This document shows positions 4,903 to 61,130 of a DNA stretch of 64,000 nucleotides, piece after piece. The notes under the pieces were generated by a model. The model saw only the letters and a program-made list of their open reading frames with translations, had not been told where the DNA came from and did not search any database. Position numbers and translations under genes: made by a program. Every line of letters starts with the position of its first letter. Positions within the stretch are counted from its first letter, which is position 1. The DNA is taken from assembly GCF_018967865.2 (NCBI RefSeq), contig NZ_JAHLZY020000003.1:85501-149500 (forward strand). Reading direction: 5' to 3'. Source of the DNA: Hymenobacter siberiensis. GTDB taxonomy: Bacteria; Bacteroidota; Bacteroidia; Cytophagales; Hymenobacteraceae.

Positions 4903-5112
4903 GAGATTCTGATTTAAAAAAGTGAATAGGCGCTGCTCAAAGGCGAGGCCTTCTTGGTGGCAGCTTGCTTATCACAAAGGTACCGGCCGCCCAGAGCGGT
5001 CAAATGGACAATACGTTCTACGTTATGGACATTTGGGCCACGGCTGGTTTTGTCGGGGCTTGCGGGAGGAACCGGCATGCCCGACGCAGCCGGGCGGCCC
5101 GTGCCACCAGCG

Positions 5113-49758: not shown

Positions 49759-51801
49759 TCAAATCTTAAGGGCCAGCTCCTCGGCGGCCAGGGCGGCAGC
49801 CGGCACCGGGTCCGAAACGTTTTCCGGAGCCACGCGCTGCAGCTCCAGCGGGCGGTGGGGCTGAATGGTGAGGGGCACCAGCTCCACGGCCACGTCGCTG
49901 GTGTCCAGGCCAAAGGCTTGCTGGTCGCTGATGGCCAGCTTGTTGAACAGGAAGTAGCCTTGCAGGATAATCCGTTCCTTCAACGACAGCTGGTTGTCGA
50001 AGCTGAGCACTTTGTCGAGCACCACGAAGCGGAAGTCGCCGGGCATGCGGTGCTTTTGCAGCGTGGCATAGCGCGAGGTGATGTCGATTTCGCCCTTGCC
50101 GGCCATGTCCTCCAGCACGCGCCGGAACAGCAGGTTGATGCGCGGCTGAATGCGGAAGCCCAGCTGGAAGTTGATTTTGTAGGCCACGTCGGGCACCAAC
50201 GTTTCCAGGGTGTAGCGCATGCCGAAGGGCTCATTCAGCATGCTGATGTTGAGGAACCAGTACCGGTCGGCGCGCTTGGGTTTCTTACGCAGGATGGAGT
50301 AGAGAATGCGGGCCTCAATCTGGCGGGCGTTTTTGCTGCGCGTGAGGTACACCAGGTTCGAGGCGTACTTGCTCACGGTCTGGTCCTGGCTCAGTTCCTG
50401 CAAAATGGGCAAGTTTTCGGCCCAGTCGGTCATGTCGAGGTAGCGGTTCTTAATCTGGCGGCCCTTGTAGCCCATCCACATGCCCAGAATCAGGCCCCAC
50501 TCGAAGACGAGGATGCCCAGCCGGTTGAGCAGCTTGGTGATGTTGGCGATGAGAAACGACAACTCCACCGTCAGAAACACCAGCATGATTAGGCCCACCA
50601 CCGGGATGGCCCAGTGCTTCACGCCGCGCAGGTACTGCGAGAGCAAAATGCTGGTCATCAGCATGGCCACCGTGATGGAGAAGCCGTAGGCCGCCTCCAT
50701 GTTGCTGCTGGTCTGGAACCAGAGCTGCACGCACACGCAGCCGAACCACAGCAGCCAGTTGATGCTCGGCACGTAAATCTGCCCGCGCTGGTCGGTAGGA
50801 AACAGGATGCGCACCTTGGGCCAGAAGTTCAAACTCACCGCTTCGGAAATCAGCGTGTACGAGCCCGAAATCAGGGCCTGCGAGGCGATGATGGTGGCCA
50901 TGGTGGCGATGATAATCAGCGGAATCAGGCCCCAGGTGGGCGCAATCAGGAAGAAGGGATTCTGGGCGCTGCTCAGCACCTGGCCCATGTGGTCCATGGT
51001 CCAGGCGGCCTGGCCCAGGTAGTTGAGCACGAGGGCCGTTTTCACAAAGAGCCAGGCCGTCCGAATATTCTTACGCCCGCAGTGGCCCAGGTCTGAATAC
51101 AGCGCCTCGGCGCCCGTGGTGCACAGAAACACCGCGCCCAGCAGCCAGAAACCCTTGGGGTACACCGTCAGCAGCTCGATGGCGTACCGCGGGTTCAGCG
51201 CCTGGAGAATGGCGGGGTGGTGGAAAATCTGAATCAGCCCCAGCGAGCCAATGGTGCTGAACCACACCAGCATGATGGGCCCGAACGAAGCCCCTACCAC
51301 CTTGGTGCCAAACTGCTGAAACGCGAACAGCAGCGTGATAATGACCAGCACGATGGTGATAATAGTCGTTTCGGTCAACGTGGGGTCCAGCAGCCTCAGC
51401 CCCTCAATGGCCGACGACACCGAAATGGGCGGCGTGATGATGCCATCGGCCAGCAGCGTGCCCGCCCCGATGATGGCCGGCCATAGCAGCCACCGGCCCC
51501 GGTGCTTCACCAGCGAATAGAGCGAGAAAATGCCGCCCTCGCCGTGGTTATCGGCCTCCAGCGTGAGCAGGATGTACTTGATGCTGGTTTGGAGCGTGAG
51601 CGTCCAGAAAACGGCCGACACGCCGCCGTACACGAGCAGCTCGCTCACGGGCCGGTCGCCGAGAATGGACTTGAACACGTACAGCGGCGAGGTGCCGATG
51701 TCGCCGAAAATGATGCCGAGCGTAACCAGCAGGCCGGCCACCGTGATGCTGCGTTTGTGAATGCTGATTTCCGTGGGAAGCGCAGCCGTGAGCGTGGACA
51801 T
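49759..51801 (-). CDS. kup: KUP/HAK-type potassium uptake transporter
   Basis: 680 residues. GIIFGDIGTSPLYVFKSILG near residue 30 is the signature of the KUP family, followed by EADNHGEGGIFSLY and DGIITPPISVSSAIEGL. About twelve membrane helices span residues 20-450; the C-terminal ~230 residues form the usual cytoplasmic tail. Takes up K+ with protons across the inner membrane. The gene lies 33 bases downstream of the HAMP-PAS kinase on the same strand, so transcription from a common promoter is likely. Confidence 0.93.
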   Translation of the reverse strand: MSTLTAALPTEISIHKRSITVAGLLVTLGIIFGDIGTSPLYVFKSILGDRPVSELLVYGGVSAVFWTLTLQTSIKYILLTLEADNHGEGGIFSLYSLVKHRGRWLLWPAIIGAGTLLADGIITPPISVSSAIEGLRLLDPTLTETTIITIVLVIITLLFAFQQFGTKVVGASFGPIMLVWFSTIGSLGLIQIFHHPAILQALNPRYAIELLTVYPKGFWLLGAVFLCTTGAEALYSDLGHCGRKNIRTAWLFVKTALVLNYLGQAAWTMDHMGQVLSSAQNPFFLIAPTWGLIPLIIIATMATIIASQALISGSYTLISEAVSLNFWPKVRILFPTDQRGQIYVPSINWLLWFGCVCVQLWFQTSSNMEAAYGFSITVAMLMTSILLSQYLRGVKHWAIPVVGLIMLVFLTVELSFLIANITKLLNRLGILVFEWGLILGMWMGYKGRQIKNRYLDMTDWAENLPILQELSQDQTVSKYASNLVYLTRSKNARQIEARILYSILRKKPKRADRYWFLNISMLNEPFGMRYTLETLVPDVAYKINFQLGFRIQPRINLLFRRVLEDMAGKGEIDITSRYATLQKHRMPGDFRFVVLDKVLSFDNQLSLKERIILQGYFLFNKLAISDQQAFGLDTSDVAVELVPLTIQPHRPLELQRVAPENVSDPVPAAALAAEELALKI

Positions 51802-51834: not shown

Positions 51835-53595
51835 CTAGGCCACGGGCAAAGTGAAATAGAAGGTGCTGCCAGCACCGGGCGTGCTTTCCACGCCCAGCGT
51901 GCCGCCCTGGTTGGTGATGAATTCGCGGGAGATGCTCAGACCCAGGCCGGTACCAGCGGCCGCTTCCGGCCCCGCGCCGGGGCCCTGCGCAAACCGCTCG
52001 AAAATGCGCTGCTGGTGCTCCGGGGCAATGCCCGGGCCGTCGTCCTGCACCTGCACCCGCACCGCCTGGCCGTCGGGCTCGGCGGCGGCCGAAACGATAA
52101 TCCGGCCACCCTCGGGCGAGTAGCGCACGGCGTTGGCCAGCAGATTGAGCAGCACCCAGGCCGACTTTTCCAGGTCGGCGCGCACCGGCGGCAGGTTGGG
52201 GGGCAGCTGCACGTCCAGCACCAGGTGCTTGGGGCGCAGCTGCAGCTGCAGGGGCTCGGTGGCGGCGGCCACCAGCGCGGCCAGCGCGGTGGGGCGCATG
52301 TCGAGGGCAATGGTGGCGCCTGCTTCCAGGCGGGCCACCGTCAGCAGCTCGCTCACCAGGAGCAGCAGGCGCTGGTTTTCCTGCCGCAGGCTGCTCACGA
52401 TGTCGGCCTGCTCGGCATTGAGCGGCCCGATGCGCTGGTCGAGCAGCAGCTTGAGGTTGAAATTGCTGCTCGACAGCGGCGTTTTCAGCTCGTGTGAGAT
52501 GGTGGCCAGGAAGTCGGACTTGGTCTGGTCCAGCTTCTTGAAGGCCGACACGTTGTGCAGCGCCAGGATGGAGCCGATGAACTCCATGCGGTCAGTGGCC
52601 GCGTTAAATGAAACGGCCTCGTGCAGGCCCACCTGGTAGAATACGGCCTCAGCCCCTTCTCCCACGGTGAGGGCCAGGGGCGTGCTGCCCCGCTGGGCGG
52701 CGGGCTGCTGCACGTAGGCCAGCAGCTGGCCAAACACCGGGTTGGCCTGCGCCAGCTCCTCGGCCGGCCGGGCCACCACCTCGGCCTCCGACAGCCCCAG
52801 CAGGGCACAGGCCACGGGGTTGGCCACAATCACCTGCCGGCTTTCATCGAGCAGCAGCAGGCCCTCTTTCAGCGTCTGCACGATGCTGGCCACCCGGTTG
52901 CGCTCGGTCAGCAGCTCGGCCAGGTTGGCCGTGCGGTACTCGTTGAGGTGCATCAGCAAACCATTAAAGGCCCGGGTCACACTGCCAAACTCGTCGGTAC
53001 TTTCCTGTGGGATGCTGGCCGAAAAATTGCCCGCCGCCGCGTGGTCGATGCTGGCCGTGAGCTTGCGCAGGCCGCCCACGGCCGCTTCCGGCACGCTCAG
53101 CACCAGGGCCAGGGCTAGCAGCGCGCCCAGGGTCAGCAGGGTTACCAGAAAGCGGGTGGCGGCGGTGGCCGTGCGGTTGGCCTGCTCGTTTTTGCGGGTG
53201 AGGGCGGCCATGTTCAGGGCCACCATGTGGTGGGTGTGCCGACGCAGCTCGGCCACGGTGGCTGCCCGGGTGACCGGGGCATCCTCGTAGCGGCCCAGGG
53301 TCTGCACCATGCTGTCGACGAGCTGCTGCTCGCCGGGCTCCGTGATATTGCCGGCCTCGCGGGTAAGCGCCGTGCTGTAGCGGTTCAAGGCGGCTGGCGC
53401 GGCGGCTGGGGTGGCCAGCTCATCCAACGCCTGCAACATGCGCTGGCCCAGCTGCACCGAGTAGAAATTGTCCTGCAGAATAGCGCGCGAATTCCGGTCC
53501 AGCTGGTGCACGGTATCGAAGGCGTAGCCCCCCAGCCCGACCAGCAGGACCAGCATGGCCACGAATCCCCAGGTGATTTTTGCTTTGAGTGACAT
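51835..53595 (-). CDS. Transmembrane HAMP-PAS sensor histidine kinase
   Basis: 586 residues. First helix (WGFVAMLVLLVGLGGYAF), a ~130-residue periplasmic four-helix-type sensor region, second helix (FLVTLLTLGALLALALVLSV), HAMP linker to about residue 235, PAS domain (SIVQTLKEGLLLLDESRQVI), then TISHELKTPLSSSNF with the phospho-acceptor His, VLLNLLANAVRYSPEGG, VQDDGPGIAP and GTGLGLSISREFI. Core complete. No response regulator follows; the next gene is kup, which hints that the kinase senses osmotic or K+ status. Upstream promoter region is 53596 onward. Confidence 0.9.
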   Translation of the reverse strand: MSLKAKITWGFVAMLVLLVGLGGYAFDTVHQLDRNSRAILQDNFYSVQLGQRMLQALDELATPAAAPAALNRYSTALTREAGNITEPGEQQLVDSMVQTLGRYEDAPVTRAATVAELRRHTHHMVALNMAALTRKNEQANRTATAATRFLVTLLTLGALLALALVLSVPEAAVGGLRKLTASIDHAAAGNFSASIPQESTDEFGSVTRAFNGLLMHLNEYRTANLAELLTERNRVASIVQTLKEGLLLLDESRQVIVANPVACALLGLSEAEVVARPAEELAQANPVFGQLLAYVQQPAAQRGSTPLALTVGEGAEAVFYQVGLHEAVSFNAATDRMEFIGSILALHNVSAFKKLDQTKSDFLATISHELKTPLSSSNFNLKLLLDQRIGPLNAEQADIVSSLRQENQRLLLLVSELLTVARLEAGATIALDMRPTALAALVAAATEPLQLQLRPKHLVLDVQLPPNLPPVRADLEKSAWVLLNLLANAVRYSPEGGRIIVSAAAEPDGQAVRVQVQDDGPGIAPEHQQRIFERFAQGPGAGPEAAAGTGLGLSISREFITNQGGTLGVESTPGAGSTFYFTLPVA

Positions 53596-54113
53596 AAGGC
53601 GGCCGGCTAAGAGAATGGGAACACCCCAGGACTGCGCCGGCCGCAGCGAATGCCAGACCAGAACGGGCCAGGCGTGCTACAATTACTATAACCAAAATAT
53701 AGTCAGTAGGTTATATTTATTCAAAGCGCTGCCGCTACCGCTCAAAGGCCGCGCACCGGGCCATTATGACCCGGTGCGTTTGTCATAATGATATGCTTGC
53801 GGGTCGGGGCACCGGGTTCCGCCCCCAGCAATGGGGCGGCAGCGCGTGTTGAGGCCGCCGCCCAGTGCCGGGCTGCCGGCATTTTTGGCGGTCATCACAG
53901 AATAAATAGCGGCCCTTCTTCCAGCCGTTAGGACTGGCTTCCATTAACTGGCCCAGGCCAATACTTCAGCATATCAACATCTGGCGGGACGTGGTTTGCA
54001 ACAGTCAGCCGGTCGGCTGGAAAGGAGTTGTTCCGAGTAATTAAACGGAGTCTGGCTTCCGCCATCGAATCCACCATCCGCTTGTTGTGTCTGCTCATTG
54101 CTGTCGCTTACCT
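53596..54113. other. Divergent promoter region before the synthetase operon
   Basis: About 520 bases between the kinase (minus) and the synthetase (plus). AT-rich patches such as GGTTATATTTATTC near 53710 and AGTAATTAAACGG near 54036 may carry promoters; I cannot fix a -7/-33 pair. No gene, tRNA or riboswitch is recognised. Confidence 0.45.
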
Positions 54114-57100
54114 ATGAACCCCACCGAAACGCTTGCCAACGGTAGTACCGACACCTTAGTCCTGCCCGTACCCTTTGCCGCTTTAACCGCCTCGGTTACC
54201 GCCTATGCGCTCGTGCACTACCGCTACCAACCCGAGCGCACGGCCACCGTGCTGCCCGTGGCCGTGCGGCTGGGCGCGCCGGCTGATTTGCTGGCTCCGG
54301 TGCTCCAGCTGCATCTTTCGCTGGATGATGCGCAGCGGGTGAGCACGCTGACTGCCGAGGCCGCACAGCAAATCCGCACGGCGCTGGCGGCATTGCCACC
54401 TGATTGGGAGCCGGCAATGCAGCCCTGGCACCTGCAAATGACGCCCGACAGCGCCGACACACCACCCGCCTGGGAAAGCAAAGTTACGTTTTTGGATGAT
54501 GACGTGACGTTTGCCGTCGCCGACCGGCCCGCTACTGCCGGCCATTTGCAGGCTGTATTCGAGCAGCTCGGGCCCACTACCGAAACCACGGTGGGCCGGC
54601 TACAATTTCTGGGTACCGCCGAGCTGATGCAGCTAGCCGAATTTGCCCAGAGCCCGGTGCAGCTGCCCGCCGGCGCTCCCGCGCGGCTGCACGAGTGGTT
54701 TGAAGCCAGCGTGCAGCAGTACCCCACACGGCCGGCCCTGCTGGGGCCCGCCGGCCCCGTGAGCTACCGCGAGCTGGACGAGCGCGCCAACGCGCTGGCC
54801 GACTATCTGCGCGCCACGGGCGTACAACCCGGCGATTTCGTAGGCCTGTTCATCGCAAAATCGACGGAGCTGTACGTGGCCATGCTGGCCGTGCTCAAGG
54901 CCGGGGCCGCCTACGTGCCCCTGGACTTAAGCTTTCCGGCCGAGCGGGTGGCCTTCATTCTGAGCGACTGCGGGGCGCGCCTGCTGCTGACGGCCGGGCC
55001 GCCCCCCGCTCCCGGCGAGTGGGCCGGCACCGCCCTGAACCTGCACCAGCTACCGGCTTATCCGGCCGAGAGCCGGCCGGCCGCCCCCGCCCCCGTGCTT
55101 TCGCCCGACTCGCCGGCCTACGTCATCTACACGTCTGGCACCACCGGCCTGCCCAAGGGCGTGGTGCTGCCGCACCGCAGCATTGGCCATTTGGTGCAGG
55201 CCGAGCAGGCCTTGTTTCAGCCGACTGCCGACGACCGGGTAGCGCAGGGCTTTTCGGTGGCTTTTGATGCTTCGCTGGAAGAAATCTGGCTGGCCTGGGC
55301 CGCCGGCGCGGCGCTGGTGCCGGTGCCCGACGAGGTGATGAAAGCGCCCGACGCGCTGCCAGCGTTTCTACTGGCCCAAGGCGTCACGGTGTTTTCCACG
55401 GTGCCCACGCTGCTCTCGCTGCTCGATGCGCCGGTGGCCACGGTGCGCCTACTCATTCTGGGCGGCGAAGTGTGTCCGGCCGAGCTGCTGACGGCCTGGG
55501 GCGGGACCAGCCGGCGCATCGTGAACACCTACGGGCCCACGGAGGCCACCGTCATCGCCACCAGCGCCGACTACGTGCCGGGCCGGCCGCTCACCATTGG
55601 CCGGCCGGTGCCGGGCTACGTGGTGCGGCTGCTCGACCAGGCCGGGCAGGCCGTTGCCCCGGGCCTGGAAGGCGAAATCTGCCTGGGCGGGGCCGCGCTG
55701 GCCACCGGCTACCTCAACCGCCCCGAGCTGACGGCCAGCAAGTTTATTGAAGCAGATGCCCCCCAGCCGGCGTTGCGCGGCCGCTTCTATCGCACTGGCG
55801 ATTTGGGCCGCTTCACGACCGGCGGCGAAGTGGAGTTTCTGGGCCGCATCGACACGCAGGTGAAGCTGCGCGGCTACCGCATAGAGCTGGCCGAAATCGA
55901 GGCGCTGCTGTTGCAGTTTCCGGGCGTGCGCAACGCCGCCGTGGCCCTCAAAACCGGTCCCGACGACGTGCCCCGGCTTATTGCCTACCTCATTCTGGCC
56001 GCCGGCCACGCGCTGGACGAAGCCGCGCTGCGCCCCTTCCTGCGCACCCGGCTGGCCGCCTACATGGTGCCGGCCCTGTTCGTGGAAATGGGCAGCTTCC
56101 CGGCCCTGACCAGCGGCAAAGTCGACCGCAAGGCCCTGCCCTACCCGCAGGGCACCGCAGCGGAGTCGGACCGCGTGCTGGTGGCCCCGCGCACGCCCGC
56201 CGAAGCGGCCCTGCTGCCCATGTGGCAGCAGCGCTTCGGCACGAAGGCCATTTCCGTCATCGACGACTTTTTTGACCTCGGCGGCAACTCGCTGCTGGCT
56301 TCGCTACTGGTATCGGAGCTGCGGCGGCGGCCTGAGTTTGCCGGCCTCTCGGTGCGCGACCTCTACGCCGGCCGCACCATCGAGGGCCTGGCCCGCTGCG
56401 CGGTAACGCCCACCGAAGCCGATGCGCCCACGACCGGCTTCAGCACTGAGCCGACCGCCACCAGCCCCGCCGCTTCGACGGGCGTGCGGGCGGTCACGGC
56501 GGGACTGCAGCTGCTTTCGGCTACTTTATTCTACGCGCTGCCCGTCACCACGCTGCTGTTTTCGTTGCGCCGCACAGGCATGGCGCACTGGCACTGGCTG
56601 CCGCTGCTGGGCCTGTCCCTGGCCTCGCTGCTGGCCTATCTGCCCCTGTATGGCCTGCTGGTAGTGGCGGTGAAGTGGCTCGTTATCGGCCGGTTTCGGG
56701 CGGGCAACTACCCGCTGTGGGGCTTCTATTACCTGCGCTTCTGGCTAGTGAAGAAGGCCGTCGAATCGGTGCCCGCCTACCTGCTCACCGGCACGCCTTA
56801 CCTCAATGCCTTCTACCGCCTGCTGGGGGCACACATTGGCCCGCACGTCCACCTCAACTCCAACCGTCTGCTGGCCTTCGACCTGATTACCATCGGCGCG
56901 GGCGCCAGCATTGCCCCCGAGGCCGGCCTGCTAGGCTACCGCGTGGAAGCCGGCCGCCTGCTGCTGGGCCCCATCGAAGTAGGTGAGAATGCCTACGTGG
57001 GCCTGCGGGCGGTGCTGCGCAACAATTCGCGCCTCGGGGCCGAGGCCGTGCTCGAAGACCTTTCGGCCCTGGCCGCCGGCCACGAAGTGCCCGCCTACGA

Positions 57101-58568
57101 GGTGTGGGCCGGCTCGCCGGCCCGGCGCGTGCGCACCCTGGCCCCGGCCGACTGCCCGCCCGTGCTTCGGCCCGGCCAAAGCACCCGCCTGGGCTTCCTG
57201 GCCCTGCAAACCGGCGCGCTGCTGCTGGTGCAGCTATTACCAGCGGGCAGCGCCCTGCCGGTGGTGGGCTTGTTCTACGAGGCCGTGCTGCGCTACGGCT
57301 GGCTGGCGGCGCTGGCGCTGCTGCTGCCCCTCTCCACGCTCTACGTGGTGCTTTCCATCCTGGTCTCGGCCCTGTTTGTGCGGGTGGGCACCAGCCGGCG
57401 CGGCGCGGCCACGCACTCGCTCTACAGCCGGGCCTACGTGCAGCAATGGTTCGTCGATGCCATTCTGGCCGAGAGCCTGCGCCTGTTGCGGCCGCTGTAC
57501 GCCACCATCTACACGCCATTTTACCTGCGCCTGCTGGGCGCGCGCATTGGCCGGCGGGCCGAAGTTTCTACGCTAAATCACCTCTCGGTCGACCAGCTGA
57601 CGGTGGGCGCGGAGGCTTTTCTGGCCGATTCGGTCAGCATCGGCGCGCCGCGGGTGCAGCGCGGGGTGCTCACCATCGCGCCCACCGTTATCGGGGCGCG
57701 CTCGTTTATCGGCAACAGCGCAGTGGTGCCCGGCGGCACCACGCTGGGCAGCGGCGTCTTGATTGGGGCACTATCCACAGCCCCGGCAACCACGCCCGCC
57801 GACGATACCTCGTGGGTGGGCTCGCCGGCCTTTGCCCTGCCCAACCGGCCGGTCAGCCACGCTTTTCCGGCCAGCCTCACCTTTGCCCCGCCGCGCCGGC
57901 TGGTGCTGGCCCGGGGGCTGATTGAGTTCTTCAAAATAACGCTCCCCTATTGCTTCGCTTTCCTGAGCTTCGGCCTACTCTATCACTACTGCGTCGAGCA
58001 CCCGGCGCTGCCCTTCTGGCGCGTGGTGCTGGGCGGCACCGGTATTTTTCTGACCTCCATTTTCAGCCTGACCCTGCTCACGGTGGCGCTCAAATGGACG
58101 ATAATCGGACGCTACGTGCCGGCCGAGAAGCCGTTGTGGTCGTCCTTCGTCTGGCGCAGCGAATTGGTTAATTCCCTGTGCGAAAGCTACGTGTATCCGT
58201 TCTGGGAGGCGCTGCTGCTGGGTACGCCGTTCGCGGCCATTTTCTTTCGCTGGATGGGTTCTGACTTTGGCAAGCGTGTCTATCTGGATACCACCGAAAT
58301 TACGGAGTTTGACCTGGCCCACGTCGGCGACCAAGCCGAGCTGGCCAGCGGCGTCACCGTCCAGACCCACCTCTTTGAGGACCGGGTGATGAAGATGTCG
58401 CACCTGCGCATTGGAGCCGGGGCCTCGGTGGGCGTGTCGGCCGTGGTACTCTACGATTCGGAGATGGAGGCCGGGGCCCGCCTGCGCAGCCTCTCGCTGC
58501 TGATGAAGGGCGAACGGCTGCCCGCCCACACTACCTGGCAGGGCATTCCGTGCTCGTTCGTGCCGTAG
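54114..58568 (+). CDS. Pls/PosA-type single-module peptide synthetase with three beta-helix domains
   Basis: 1484 residues from MNPTETLANG at 54114. Residues ~1-180 look like the leftover end of a condensation domain (AGHLQAVFEQLG ... GRLQFLGTAELMQLAEF). Adenylation domain ~190-690: YTSGTTGLPKG (A3), SVAFDASLEEIWLAW (A4), NTYGPTEATVIAT (A5), YRTGDLGRF (A7), GRIDTQVKLRGYRIEL (A8), LTSGKVDRKAL (A10). Carrier domain with Ser726 (DLGGNSLLASLLV). Then three units of two membrane helices plus a left-handed beta-helix domain, the last ending at the C-terminus. This is the layout of epsilon-polylysine synthetase Pls and related enzymes, which polymerise one amino acid at the inner membrane without a classical condensation domain. 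Hand alignment with GrsA suggests the pocket D-A-E-S-I-G-T-V-I. First gene of a three-gene overlapping cassette. Confidence 0.85.
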   Translation: MNPTETLANGSTDTLVLPVPFAALTASVTAYALVHYRYQPERTATVLPVAVRLGAPADLLAPVLQLHLSLDDAQRVSTLTAEAAQQIRTALAALPPDWEPAMQPWHLQMTPDSADTPPAWESKVTFLDDDVTFAVADRPATAGHLQAVFEQLGPTTETTVGRLQFLGTAELMQLAEFAQSPVQLPAGAPARLHEWFEASVQQYPTRPALLGPAGPVSYRELDERANALADYLRATGVQPGDFVGLFIAKSTELYVAMLAVLKAGAAYVPLDLSFPAERVAFILSDCGARLLLTAGPPPAPGEWAGTALNLHQLPAYPAESRPAAPAPVLSPDSPAYVIYTSGTTGLPKGVVLPHRSIGHLVQAEQALFQPTADDRVAQGFSVAFDASLEEIWLAWAAGAALVPVPDEVMKAPDALPAFLLAQGVTVFSTVPTLLSLLDAPVATVRLLILGGEVCPAELLTAWGGTSRRIVNTYGPTEATVIATSADYVPGRPLTIGRPVPGYVVRLLDQAGQAVAPGLEGEICLGGAALATGYLNRPELTASKFIEADAPQPALRGRFYRTGDLGRFTTGGEVEFLGRIDTQVKLRGYRIELAEIEALLLQFPGVRNAAVALKTGPDDVPRLIAYLILAAGHALDEAALRPFLRTRLAAYMVPALFVEMGSFPALTSGKVDRKALPYPQGTAAESDRVLVAPRTPAEAALLPMWQQRFGTKAISVIDDFFDLGGNSLLASLLVSELRRRPEFAGLSVRDLYAGRTIEGLARCAVTPTEADAPTTGFSTEPTATSPAASTGVRAVTAGLQLLSATLFYALPVTTLLFSLRRTGMAHWHWLPLLGLSLASLLAYLPLYGLLVVAVKWLVIGRFRAGNYPLWGFYYLRFWLVKKAVESVPAYLLTGTPYLNAFYRLLGAHIGPHVHLNSNRLLAFDLITIGAGASIAPEAGLLGYRVEAGRLLLGPIEVGENAYVGLRAVLRNNSRLGAEAVLEDLSALAAGHEVPAYEVWAGSPARRVRTLAPADCPPVLRPGQSTRLGFLALQTGALLLVQLLPAGSALPVVGLFYEAVLRYGWLAALALLLPLSTLYVVLSILVSALFVRVGTSRRGAATHSLYSRAYVQQWFVDAILAESLRLLRPLYATIYTPFYLRLLGARIGRRAEVSTLNHLSVDQLTVGAEAFLADSVSIGAPRVQRGVLTIAPTVIGARSFIGNSAVVPGGTTLGSGVLIGALSTAPATTPADDTSWVGSPAFALPNRPVSHAFPASLTFAPPRRLVLARGLIEFFKITLPYCFAFLSFGLLYHYCVEHPALPFWRVVLGGTGIFLTSIFSLTLLTVALKWTIIGRYVPAEKPLWSSFVWRSELVNSLCESYVYPFWEALLLGTPFAAIFFRWMGSDFGKRVYLDTTEITEFDLAHVGDQAELASGVTVQTHLFEDRVMKMSHLRIGAGASVGVSAVVLYDSEMEAGARLRSLSLLMKGERLPAHTTWQGIPCSFVP

Positions 58569-59275
58569 TGGCGGCATCCCCGTTGCCGTTTTATCACTGC
58601 TGGCGGACCCGCCTCGGCCCGGTGACCCCGGCCGCGCTGGCCAAACTGTCGGCTGCTGAGCAGGCCCGGCATGCGCGGTTTCTGGCAGCCGGACCCGCGC
58701 AGGCTTATGCCGGGGCGCACGTCTTTTTGCGGGCCGTGCTGGGGCACTACACCCACCAGCCCCCGGCCGCGCTGGCCCTGGGCGTGGACGCCCGGCAAAA
58801 GCCTATCCTGACCACGGACCCGCCCTTGTGGTTCAACCTGAGCTACCGCGCCGACTGGGCCTTGCTGGCCGTTTCCAACCAGGGCGAGGTGGGCGTTGAC
58901 CTCGAAGCCATCCGGCCCGTGGCCGGGGCGGCAGCCCTGGTCGACTACCTGTTTTCGCCGGCCGAGCGCGCCGTGCTGCGGGCGGCGGGGCGCTCCGCGT
59001 GGCGGGCGCTGTTCTACGCCATCTGGACCCGCAAGGAAGCCTGGGCCAAGTGCTCGGGCATGGGACTGGCGCTGCCGTTCGCGGGCTTCTCGGTGGCGCG
59101 GCGGCGCGGTTCGGCCATTGCCTGGCAAGTGCCCGGCCCCGGCCAGCTCCAAGGCTTCGCGGTGAACGAGGACCACGCGGGCGCGCTGGCCTGCGCGGCA
59201 CCAACGGCCGTTTGCTGGCAGCATTTTGATTTTCCATCCCGGCTGCCGGTGGCGGCCATTCCATTTCCCAGATGA
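58550..59275 (+). CDS. Sfp-type 4'-phosphopantetheinyl transferase
   Basis: 241 residues. GTG start at 58550 lies inside the synthetase gene (19-base overlap), which indicates translational coupling. The catalytic motifs WFNLSYRADWALLAVS, GEVGVDLEAIRP (metal-binding Asp and Glu) and YAIWTRKEAWAKCSGMGL are those of Sfp-type enzymes, and the length fits. It should convert the apo carrier domain of the upstream synthetase to the holo form using coenzyme A. A dedicated transferase next to a single-carrier synthetase is a strong functional link. Cytoplasmic. Confidence 0.92.
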   Translation: MLVRAVVAASPLPFYHCWRTRLGPVTPAALAKLSAAEQARHARFLAAGPAQAYAGAHVFLRAVLGHYTHQPPAALALGVDARQKPILTTDPPLWFNLSYRADWALLAVSNQGEVGVDLEAIRPVAGAAALVDYLFSPAERAVLRAAGRSAWRALFYAIWTRKEAWAKCSGMGLALPFAGFSVARRRGSAIAWQVPGPGQLQGFAVNEDHAGALACAAPTAVCWQHFDFPSRLPVAAIPFPR

Positions 59276-60120
59276 AGTTTTTCGTGGCCCTGTTGTGGGC
59301 ATTGCCGTTTTTTGCTGCCGGCCAGGTGCTGCCGCCCGCTGCCCCCAACCCAGCCCCGCCCGTGGCGGCGGCCGACAGCAGCGCCGGCTGGGAGCTACGG
59401 CTCGATTATGAGGCGCGTACCAGCTACCTGGGCCGCGAATACGGCAGCCACGCCTACTCCCTCAACCCTCAGGTGAGCTACTCGGCCGCCAATGGCCTTT
59501 ACGGTCGGCTCGAAGGCCTGTATTTCAGCCCCGTGCGGCCGGGCTACGTGTACACCAGCCTGGAGCTGGGCTACGCCGGCGAGTTTACCGATAACTGGAG
59601 CTACTCGCTGTCGGGCAGCCGCACGTTCTACGCCGAGCGCATCACCAAAAAGGATTCCGTGCTGCGCAATAACCTGGAAGCCTACACCCAATATACCCTT
59701 GGCCCAGTGGCGCTGGGCCTGGACTACAACTTCCTGTTCGACCATTTCCAAGCCCATACGCTTGGTCTGAACCTAAGCCTGCCGCTGGAAAAAGCGCACT
59801 GGCTGGGCTTTGATAAGGTGAGCTTTACGCCAGCGGCGGAGCTCGACTGGGGCTCGTCGCTGGCGCTGCTGCGCTTCGGCACCCTGGCCACGCCGCTCGA
59901 CCAGAACTTTGCCAAAATCGACCAGCCCACCCTGCGGCTGGTGCCGCTGGCCTACGAGTTCAGCTTTCCGCTGGAAGTGCAGCGCGGCCACCTGGCCCTG
60001 AACCTAGCCGGCCACCTGCTGGCCCCGCTGCGCGTACGCGGCGAAACCCAGGCTCCGCCCTCGTTCGGCTACCTGAGCGCGGCCCTTATTCTCCGGCTGC
60101 CCGCAAAACCGGCAGAGTAG
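59272..60120 (+). CDS. Predicted outer-membrane beta-barrel protein
   Basis: 282 residues; ATG overlaps the transferase TGA (ATGA, 59272-59275). Signal peptide FFVALLWALPFFAAGQ, a Pro/Ala-rich spacer, then about 220 residues of alternating amphipathic strands rich in Tyr and Gly (LRLDYEARTSYLGREYGSH; YTSLELGYAGEFTDNWSYSL; YTLGPVALGLDYNFLFDHF), ending in a strand FGYLSAALILRL. The pattern fits a ten- to twelve-strand barrel. No family recognised. Translational coupling to the synthetase and its activator suggests a role in export, surface retention or uptake of the product; this is inference. Confidence 0.65.
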   Translation: MKFFVALLWALPFFAAGQVLPPAAPNPAPPVAAADSSAGWELRLDYEARTSYLGREYGSHAYSLNPQVSYSAANGLYGRLEGLYFSPVRPGYVYTSLELGYAGEFTDNWSYSLSGSRTFYAERITKKDSVLRNNLEAYTQYTLGPVALGLDYNFLFDHFQAHTLGLNLSLPLEKAHWLGFDKVSFTPAAELDWGSSLALLRFGTLATPLDQNFAKIDQPTLRLVPLAYEFSFPLEVQRGHLALNLAGHLLAPLRVRGETQAPPSFGYLSAALILRLPAKPAE

Positions 60121-60410: not shown

Positions 60411-61130
60411 TCACACCAAAGAATTTATATTACTGAGGATAAGGGCGACCAGGCTATGGGCCAGCACCCGATGGGCAGTTTCGTTGAGGTGCGACGTGTC
60501 GACGAACATCTGGCGGTCGGGACGCAGCACCCGGTGCGAATCCAGCCAGTACCGGTTGGGCAGGTTGGCCAGAAGCCCCCGAAATAGCCAGCCGCCGAAA
60601 TTCCGCAGTGCGTTGTCGGCCGGAACGAGGCAGGGAAACGGCGACAAAAAGACAAACGCCGTATTGGGGTGCTGCCGCATGCAGTCGTTCAGGGCCCGAA
60701 AGCTACGGCGGTATCGGGCCGAAAATACCCACAGCGCCGCCGTGAGCAGGCCCGTGGCCGTGATGCGGACGTAGTAGGCCAATCGGCCGATGGGAAGGGC
60801 CGGCCCCACGCTGCTCATTGGCTGGGCCGCGCCGGCGAGGGGCTTTTTGCTACTGGGTCGGATGCCCAATGCCCGGCACAGCTGGTGCCCCAGGCTCCGC
60901 CAGCTGGCCGAGAACTCGTGGTTGCCCAACTGCAGCACCACATGCGAGGGGTGCAGTGCGCTAATGGCTGCCAGGTGCTCGGGCAGTTGCACAAAGGACA
61001 GGTTAGGCACCTGCGCCACCACTTCGCCCTGGAGCAGTTCGGCGAGCAGTTTCGGAAAAGCATGGTCGGAGGAGATTGCATAGCCCGCCACGTGGCAGCC
61101 ACCCAGGACAATTATTTCAATACGCTTCAT
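60411..61130 (-). CDS. SGNH/GDSL-like protein with altered nucleophile block
   Basis: 239 residues. IIVLGGCHVAGYAIS lies where SGNH hydrolases carry GDSxxxG; here the Asp is Gly and the Ser is Cys. VLQLGNHEFSASW matches block III (GxN) and VDTSHLNETAH matches block V (DxxH). A hydrophobic stretch (YYVRITATGLLTAALWVFSA) sits in the middle. It is either a Cys-nucleophile variant or an inactive relative acting on an acyl or carbohydrate ligand. Convergent with the barrel gene, 290 bases apart with no gene between. Confidence 0.55.
   Translation of the reverse strand: MKRIEIIVLGGCHVAGYAISSDHAFPKLLAELLQGEVVAQVPNLSFVQLPEHLAAISALHPSHVVLQLGNHEFSASWRSLGHQLCRALGIRPSSKKPLAGAAQPMSSVGPALPIGRLAYYVRITATGLLTAALWVFSARYRRSFRALNDCMRQHPNTAFVFLSPFPCLVPADNALRNFGGWLFRGLLANLPNRYWLDSHRVLRPDRQMFVDTSHLNETAHRVLAHSLVALILSNINSLV

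Follow-up and report, generated by a model that had tools for sequence, protein, structure and literature searches.

The window analysed here is the whole stretch of 64,000 nucleotides taken from contig NZ_JAHLZY020000003.1 of Hymenobacter siberiensis, and its numbering is used unless contig positions are stated. Between 54114 and 60120 it carries three overlapping genes, encoding a synthetase of the Pls/PosA family, a 4'-phosphopantetheinyl transferase (PPTase) and a predicted small outer-membrane beta-barrel (Table 1). The synthetase and PPTase genes overlap by 19 bases and the PPTase and barrel genes by 4 bases (ATGA), confirming that the three-gene overlapping cassette of the original prediction is real; an alternative in-frame GTG upstream of the synthetase ATG lies at 54087. 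Ratios of nonsynonymous to synonymous substitution (dN/dS) against H. artigasi were 0.105 for the synthetase, 0.165 for the PPTase and 0.062 for the barrel, and these low values indicate that the three reading frames are not due to chance.

Table 1. Features of the three-gene locus, its neighbours and its replicon (aa, amino acids; ORF, open reading frame)
Feature	Position	Strand	Remarks
Pls/PosA-family synthetase	54114..58568	+	1484 aa, ATG start; N-terminal extension of ~190 aa, adenylation, carrier, three-unit membrane/beta-helix domain
Synthetase C-terminal domain	56499..58565	+	Three (helix pair + left-handed beta-helix) units; QTHLFEDR motif in third unit
PPTase	58550..59275	+	241 aa, GTG start; ACPS superfamily, read as Sfp type
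Outer-membrane beta-barrel	59272..60120	+	282 aa, ATG start; N-terminal signal-like helix, ~12 strands in model
Histidine kinase	51835-53595	opposite	Upstream of synthetase
K_trans potassium transporter	49759-51801	opposite	Upstream of synthetase
ORF without Pfam match	60411-61130	opposite	239 aa; downstream of barrel
DUF1345 protein and DUF2279 protein		opposite	Downstream of barrel; Pfam
Rep3-type replication protein	contig positions 8597-9046

Pfam placed AMP-binding at residues 196-534 of the synthetase, AMP-binding_C at 594-669 and PP-binding at 700-762, and no condensation or thioesterase domain was matched at E 0.1. The comparison of the C-terminal region with TIGR02353 that the original prediction had proposed gave 590 bits over residues 825-1479 (cut-off 423.1); judged from its sequence, the first gene product belongs fully to the Pls/PosA family, in agreement with the claimed Pls-type synthetase with adenylation and carrier domains. 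Residues 796-1484 were modelled using AlphaFold2 (mean predicted local distance difference test (pLDDT) 87.4, predicted template modelling score (pTM) 0.87), and the model bears out the predicted arrangement of three units, each a helix pair and a beta-helix, the beta-helix part matching hexapeptide acyltransferases in a fold comparison. The domain order (adenylation, carrier, C-terminal domain) is that of Pls, the epsilon-poly-L-lysine synthetase of Streptomyces albulus, from which the present system differs by its Gram-negative host, its additional N-terminal part, its overlapping PPTase gene and its barrel gene. The adenylation and carrier domains together scored 318 bits against S. albulus Pls compared with 277 against PosA, the delta-poly-L-ornithine synthetase of Acinetobacter baumannii, several other nonribosomal peptide synthetase chains scoring higher. 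PosA belongs to the same family, is likewise Gram-negative and has the same C-terminal architecture as modelled in PMC10522769.

A scan for Pls-family relatives confirmed at least 585 stretches, 80 of which were kept for locus analyses and include Bacteroidota, Proteobacteria, Cyanobacteria, Planctomycetota and Verrucomicrobia (loci and genomes are designated below by L and G numbers, respectively). The premise that Pls enzymes are a property of Gram-positive actinomycetes is outdated, given PosA of Gram-negative A. baumannii (PMC10522769) and relatives in many phyla. N-terminal extensions of more than 90 aa were found among the 80 loci in Hymenobacter and in L116, L117, L119, L120, L131 and L173; the extra part of ~190 residues here spans 54114-54710, and by eye its end looks like the final lobe of a condensation domain. 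Non-alpha poly-amino acids (NAPAA) form a class of their own in antiSMASH. A NAPAA cluster of the same genus is tabulated for H. psoromatis PAMC26554 in the single table row given by PMC11925752, a row without gene order, barrel or substrate.

The synthetase's own motifs served to locate the positions of the substrate pocket, and alignment was used as a check. The adenylation domain of S. albulus Pls (PDB 7wew) was the first PDB match for the pocket region, and alignment of residues 355-519 to it showed the pocket to be the same at eight of nine aligned positions (D-A-E-S-I-G-T-V-I here versus D-A-E-S-I-G-T-V-V), the tenth position (K; full code DAESIGTVIK) lying outside this alignment. Alignment to 8g97 recovered the published PosA code for ornithine, DMEHNGTVSK (PMC10522769), at nine positions. 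Within Hymenobacter, 23 of 24 pockets were complete (G118 incomplete), with DAESIGTVVK or DAESIGTVIK in 22 and DAESIGNVVK in one. Four of five Bacteroidota loci outside the genus (L102-L105) have DMEHNGSVTK or DMEHNGSVSK, which differ from the PosA ornithine code at the T/S position and partly at the last variable one, and the fifth has DAESIGTVIK. Across the 80 scan loci DAESIGTV(I/V)K was the commonest code (41/80, with 10/80 incomplete or unreadable). Because these codes match the lysine type of S. albulus Pls, L-lysine is probably the monomer loaded by the synthetase, the change of V to I being assumed silent; the pocket reading is not proof of the substrate, as PMC10522769 also reports pockets of the DLED and DIES types whose substrate is unknown. 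A separate gene set at L107:3522-10241, on a Streptomyces plasmid, comprises a Pls-family gene with a pocket starting D-F-x-x-E, a diaminobutyrate transaminase gene and an aspartate kinase gene, and fits a poly-diaminobutyrate cluster.

The PPTase matched ACPS in Pfam with 61 bits (cut-off 25) and reached no NCBIfam equivalog cut-off, the best being HetI (88.5 against 370); one other member of the ACPS superfamily is present in the genome, on the chromosome. A PPTase gene was found near the synthetase in 16 of the 25 synthetase-bearing Hymenobacter genomes, and four of the five genomes with both barrel and AsmA-family genes have 0.5-2.9 kb between synthetase and PPTase. Outside the genus, 59 of 70 loci were eligible for counting (synthetase ORF of at least 1000 aa, and either a fusion or no fewer than 700 bases downstream): the PPTase lay directly behind the synthetase in 18 and was fused to it in one reading frame in 3 more, all Holophagaceae metagenome-assembled genomes (MAGs; L147, L153 and L173), the search profile having been built from Hymenobacter, so that distant PPTases may escape it. 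The loci with a PPTase behind the Pls-family gene include a contig titled Thaumarchaeota (L163:7976-12710). The pairing is thus old, since the PPTase is adjacent or fused in many loci outside Hymenobacter, and far from universal. It was also the most frequent neighbour family over the 80 scan loci, being present in 21; no other family exceeded 6, those recurring at that level or below were mostly Hymenobacter neighbours or mixed histidine kinases, and no second exporter candidate was found among the neighbour families of these loci. The predicted partnership of PPTase and synthetase is upheld by the ACPS match and by this recurrence in the genus and beyond, and the carrier domain is very likely activated by the PPTase. 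At L052 (G005) the synthetase match is split into two overlapping frames, with a PPTase gene adjacent.

No Pfam or NCBIfam family matched the barrel protein, and the PDB sequence search with its profile gave a best E of 0.12. The barrel model, calculated from a 5-row alignment, has ~12 strands with a mean pLDDT of 71.9 and a pTM of 0.64, the five models spanning pLDDT 36.6-71.9. Foldseek returned NanC first (E 5.6e-6), and VIA-align scores were 14.2 for OmpG, 14.0 for CymA and 11.9 for KdgM, the scores of autotransporter, FadL and BamA barrels being only a little lower. The third gene is predicted to encode a small porin-like outer-membrane barrel, sharing a fold class with the small monomeric porins NanC, KdgM, CymA and OmpG at an identity of 7-12% in the VIA-align rows; the signal-peptide barrel originally proposed is in this way borne out, by a weaker model than that of the synthetase. 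Barrel matches at E 0.001 or better occurred in 30 of 120 Hymenobacter genomes, of which 10 were close (E < 1e-40), and all 10 of these are among the 25 synthetase-bearing genomes; the remaining genomes and second copies, at 1.4e-17 or weaker, were read as paralogues. In a draw of 395 genomes of the class, the barrel family was present in 28, of which 26 lie outside Hymenobacter. Ten barrel-family neighbourhoods were examined (8 outside the genus, 2 genus paralogues) and a Pls-family gene stood beside the barrel in one only (G805), 4 bases ahead of it and with the ornithine-type pocket DMEHNGSVSK. The order Pls-PPTase-barrel was also found in L117, a Bacteroidetes MAG. In the barrel tree, whose branches are long and whose root is arbitrary, the synthetase-linked barrels form two groups, Hymenobacter and G805 with L117; the pairing thus appears to have arisen twice or to have been lost several times.

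Within Hymenobacter, the barrel gene lies beside the synthetase in 9 of the 25 synthetase-bearing genomes, and in four others (G035, G071, G123 and G135) the locus is cut, fragmentary or unlinked. The synthetase tree has three clades, namely a plasmid clade with the barrel, a clade with barrel and AsmA-family genes, and a clade linked to a polysaccharide utilisation locus (PUL), in which SusD, PKD and GH16 genes lie ahead of the synthetase. G028 and G123 form the first branch of the PUL-linked clade and retain a barrel gene, the assignment of G123 as PUL-linked depending on a single upstream gene. Most simply read, the ancestor of the genus had the three-gene order, and the barrel was lost once the synthetase lay behind a glucan-type locus. 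The synthetase stands behind, and in line with, SusD-PKD-GH16 at 13 genus loci (L044-L046, L050, L052, L085-L088, L091, L093, L096 and L097), some with 1-2 ORFs before the synthetase; SusC ahead of these genes was assigned by its location, its length and the beginning of its sequence, and is not visible in L050. Functional coupling of the synthetase to the SusCD-PKD-GH16 locus was considered and set aside as weakly supported, the PKD protein having matches, some partial, in 102 of 120 genus genomes and the arrangement being a single event on the tree. In H. siberiensis the SusD-PKD-GH16 locus is chromosomal, with no synthetase beside it, and its first GH16 measures 289 aa from the first ATG, as does GluH of PAMC 29290, characterised as an endo-beta-1,3-glucanase (PMC11480075); the two are equated by length and genome, and the genome has three GH16 places. 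The AsmA-family neighbour was rejected as a partner: it lies behind the barrel in five genomes but has a homologue in 116 of 120 genus genomes, and is a core gene whose nearness to the barrel is positional.

Our best explanation, which we hold tentatively, is that the plasmid-borne operon makes and releases isopeptide-linked poly-L-lysine of the epsilon-polylysine type. The PPTase would put phosphopantetheine on the carrier domain, the adenylation domain would load L-lysine and the three-unit membrane domain would join the lysines through their side-chain amines, after which the polymer would cross the inner membrane, perhaps through the membrane domain of the synthetase itself, and the outer membrane by way of the small porin-like barrel. 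By analogy with the family, the product is likely to be a homopolymer with side-chain links; the role of the barrel as its outlet is a more doubtful proposal, though a plausible one. Family membership, the lysine-type pocket, the PPTase pairing and the recurrent barrel linkage are read from the sequence; that the lysines are polymerised, joined by isopeptide bonds and passed through the barrel is what we infer. The original prediction of a cationic polymer exported or retained by a barrel is accordingly supported in part, by the Pls-type synthetase with its own PPTase, the lysine-type pocket and the recurrence of the barrel beside the synthetase, export or retention being conjecture.

Several observations weigh against the barrel as outlet. 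It is not beside the synthetase in 12 of the 25 genomes, where the downstream side is visible, and the 120-genome search gave no barrel match at all in G014, G020 and G071, so that a barrel is no general requirement; the one of G123 lies on another contig among unrelated genes. Among the flanks of 70 non-Hymenobacter scan loci and 5 outgroup loci, a barrel of this family was found only in L117; it is lacking at L119, whose synthetase is the closest on the tree to that of L117. Members of the family are also present in genomes that gave no TIGR02353 match (e.g. G054, G060, G285 and G324), the synthetase-barrel pair of G805 has no PPTase beside it, posA of A. baumannii reportedly forms an operon of one gene (PMC10522769), and a fold in common with porins shows no function. 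The search for the same gene order in other Bacteroidota was therefore divided in outcome, the nine genus genomes, L117 and, without its PPTase, G805 standing in its favour and the 12 genus loci without a barrel against it.

The barrel might instead be a passenger with a general porin role, the polymer leaving by another way or staying in the envelope, as would suit the lack of an adjacent barrel in most of the PUL-linked clade and in every non-Hymenobacter scan locus except one, and the unrelated contexts of family members in 9 of 10 neighbourhoods. We regard this as somewhat unlikely, as the synthetase is present in all 10 close-orthologue genomes, two distinct groups of barrels show the adjacency and the barrel is under strong purifying selection. 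It is unlikely that the barrel serves for protection from the same polymer, by shielding the outer membrane from the polycation that the cell itself makes or by handling fragments; LpxR was one among many barrels of like score and 12 genus loci manage without the barrel. A synthetase that produces no more than short oligomers of lysine, or one that attaches lysine to a lipid or a sugar, seems very improbable, for although its beta-helix matches sugar, serine and xenobiotic acyltransferases and the PosA product comprises 7-12-mers only, the characterised synthetases make isopeptide polymers, one of them branched (PMC10522769), and the whole C-terminal domain is retained here with its invariant motifs.

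An extended form of the proposed polylysine release, which we consider rather unlikely, would have the barrel as a dedicated outlet for cationic polymers, paired at least twice in Bacteroidota (with lysine and ornithine types) and dropped in most of the PUL-linked clade once the synthetase lay behind SusCD/GH16, where polymer and glucanase would attack glucan-walled cells. The kind of synthetase and its Gram-negative members are known, and the new element is the barrel partner: no outer-membrane partner for a Pls-type synthetase was found in the literature searched, subscription papers being mostly outside it. In the passages surveyed, the exit of a cationic polymer through the Gram-negative outer membrane is unexplained for Pls-family systems, and a barrel that tracks the synthetase provides a concrete gene for deletion. 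If the proposal is true, cold-adapted Bacteroidota would join the organisms that may make epsilon-polylysine, which is produced with Streptomyces as a food preservative.

Among the ORFs retained for neighbourhood comparison, no further gene on the + strand adjoins the three-gene cassette. The Bacteroidetes-type promoter pattern matched the window once, at 4975-5004, far from the operon, with 0.45 matches expected. The operon sits on a contig of 149,500 bases, the end of which is the end of the window. A gene read as an RND-type transporter, so named for its location, its length and the beginning of its sequence, is cut by the contig ends into 964 codons at the contig start and 72 at the window end, together 1036 codons, the size of its H. 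artigasi homologue (L089). No overlap between the contig ends was found, and no plasmid record had a place covering 80% of the query. Because of the split RND-type gene and the Rep3-type protein, the contig looks like a circular plasmid, with the split gene as the evidence of circularity. H. artigasi carries much of this gene block on a contig of 179,873 bases, and the plasmid-like contig of H. siberiensis also bears genes for acetate kinase, phosphate acetyltransferase and a potassium transporter.
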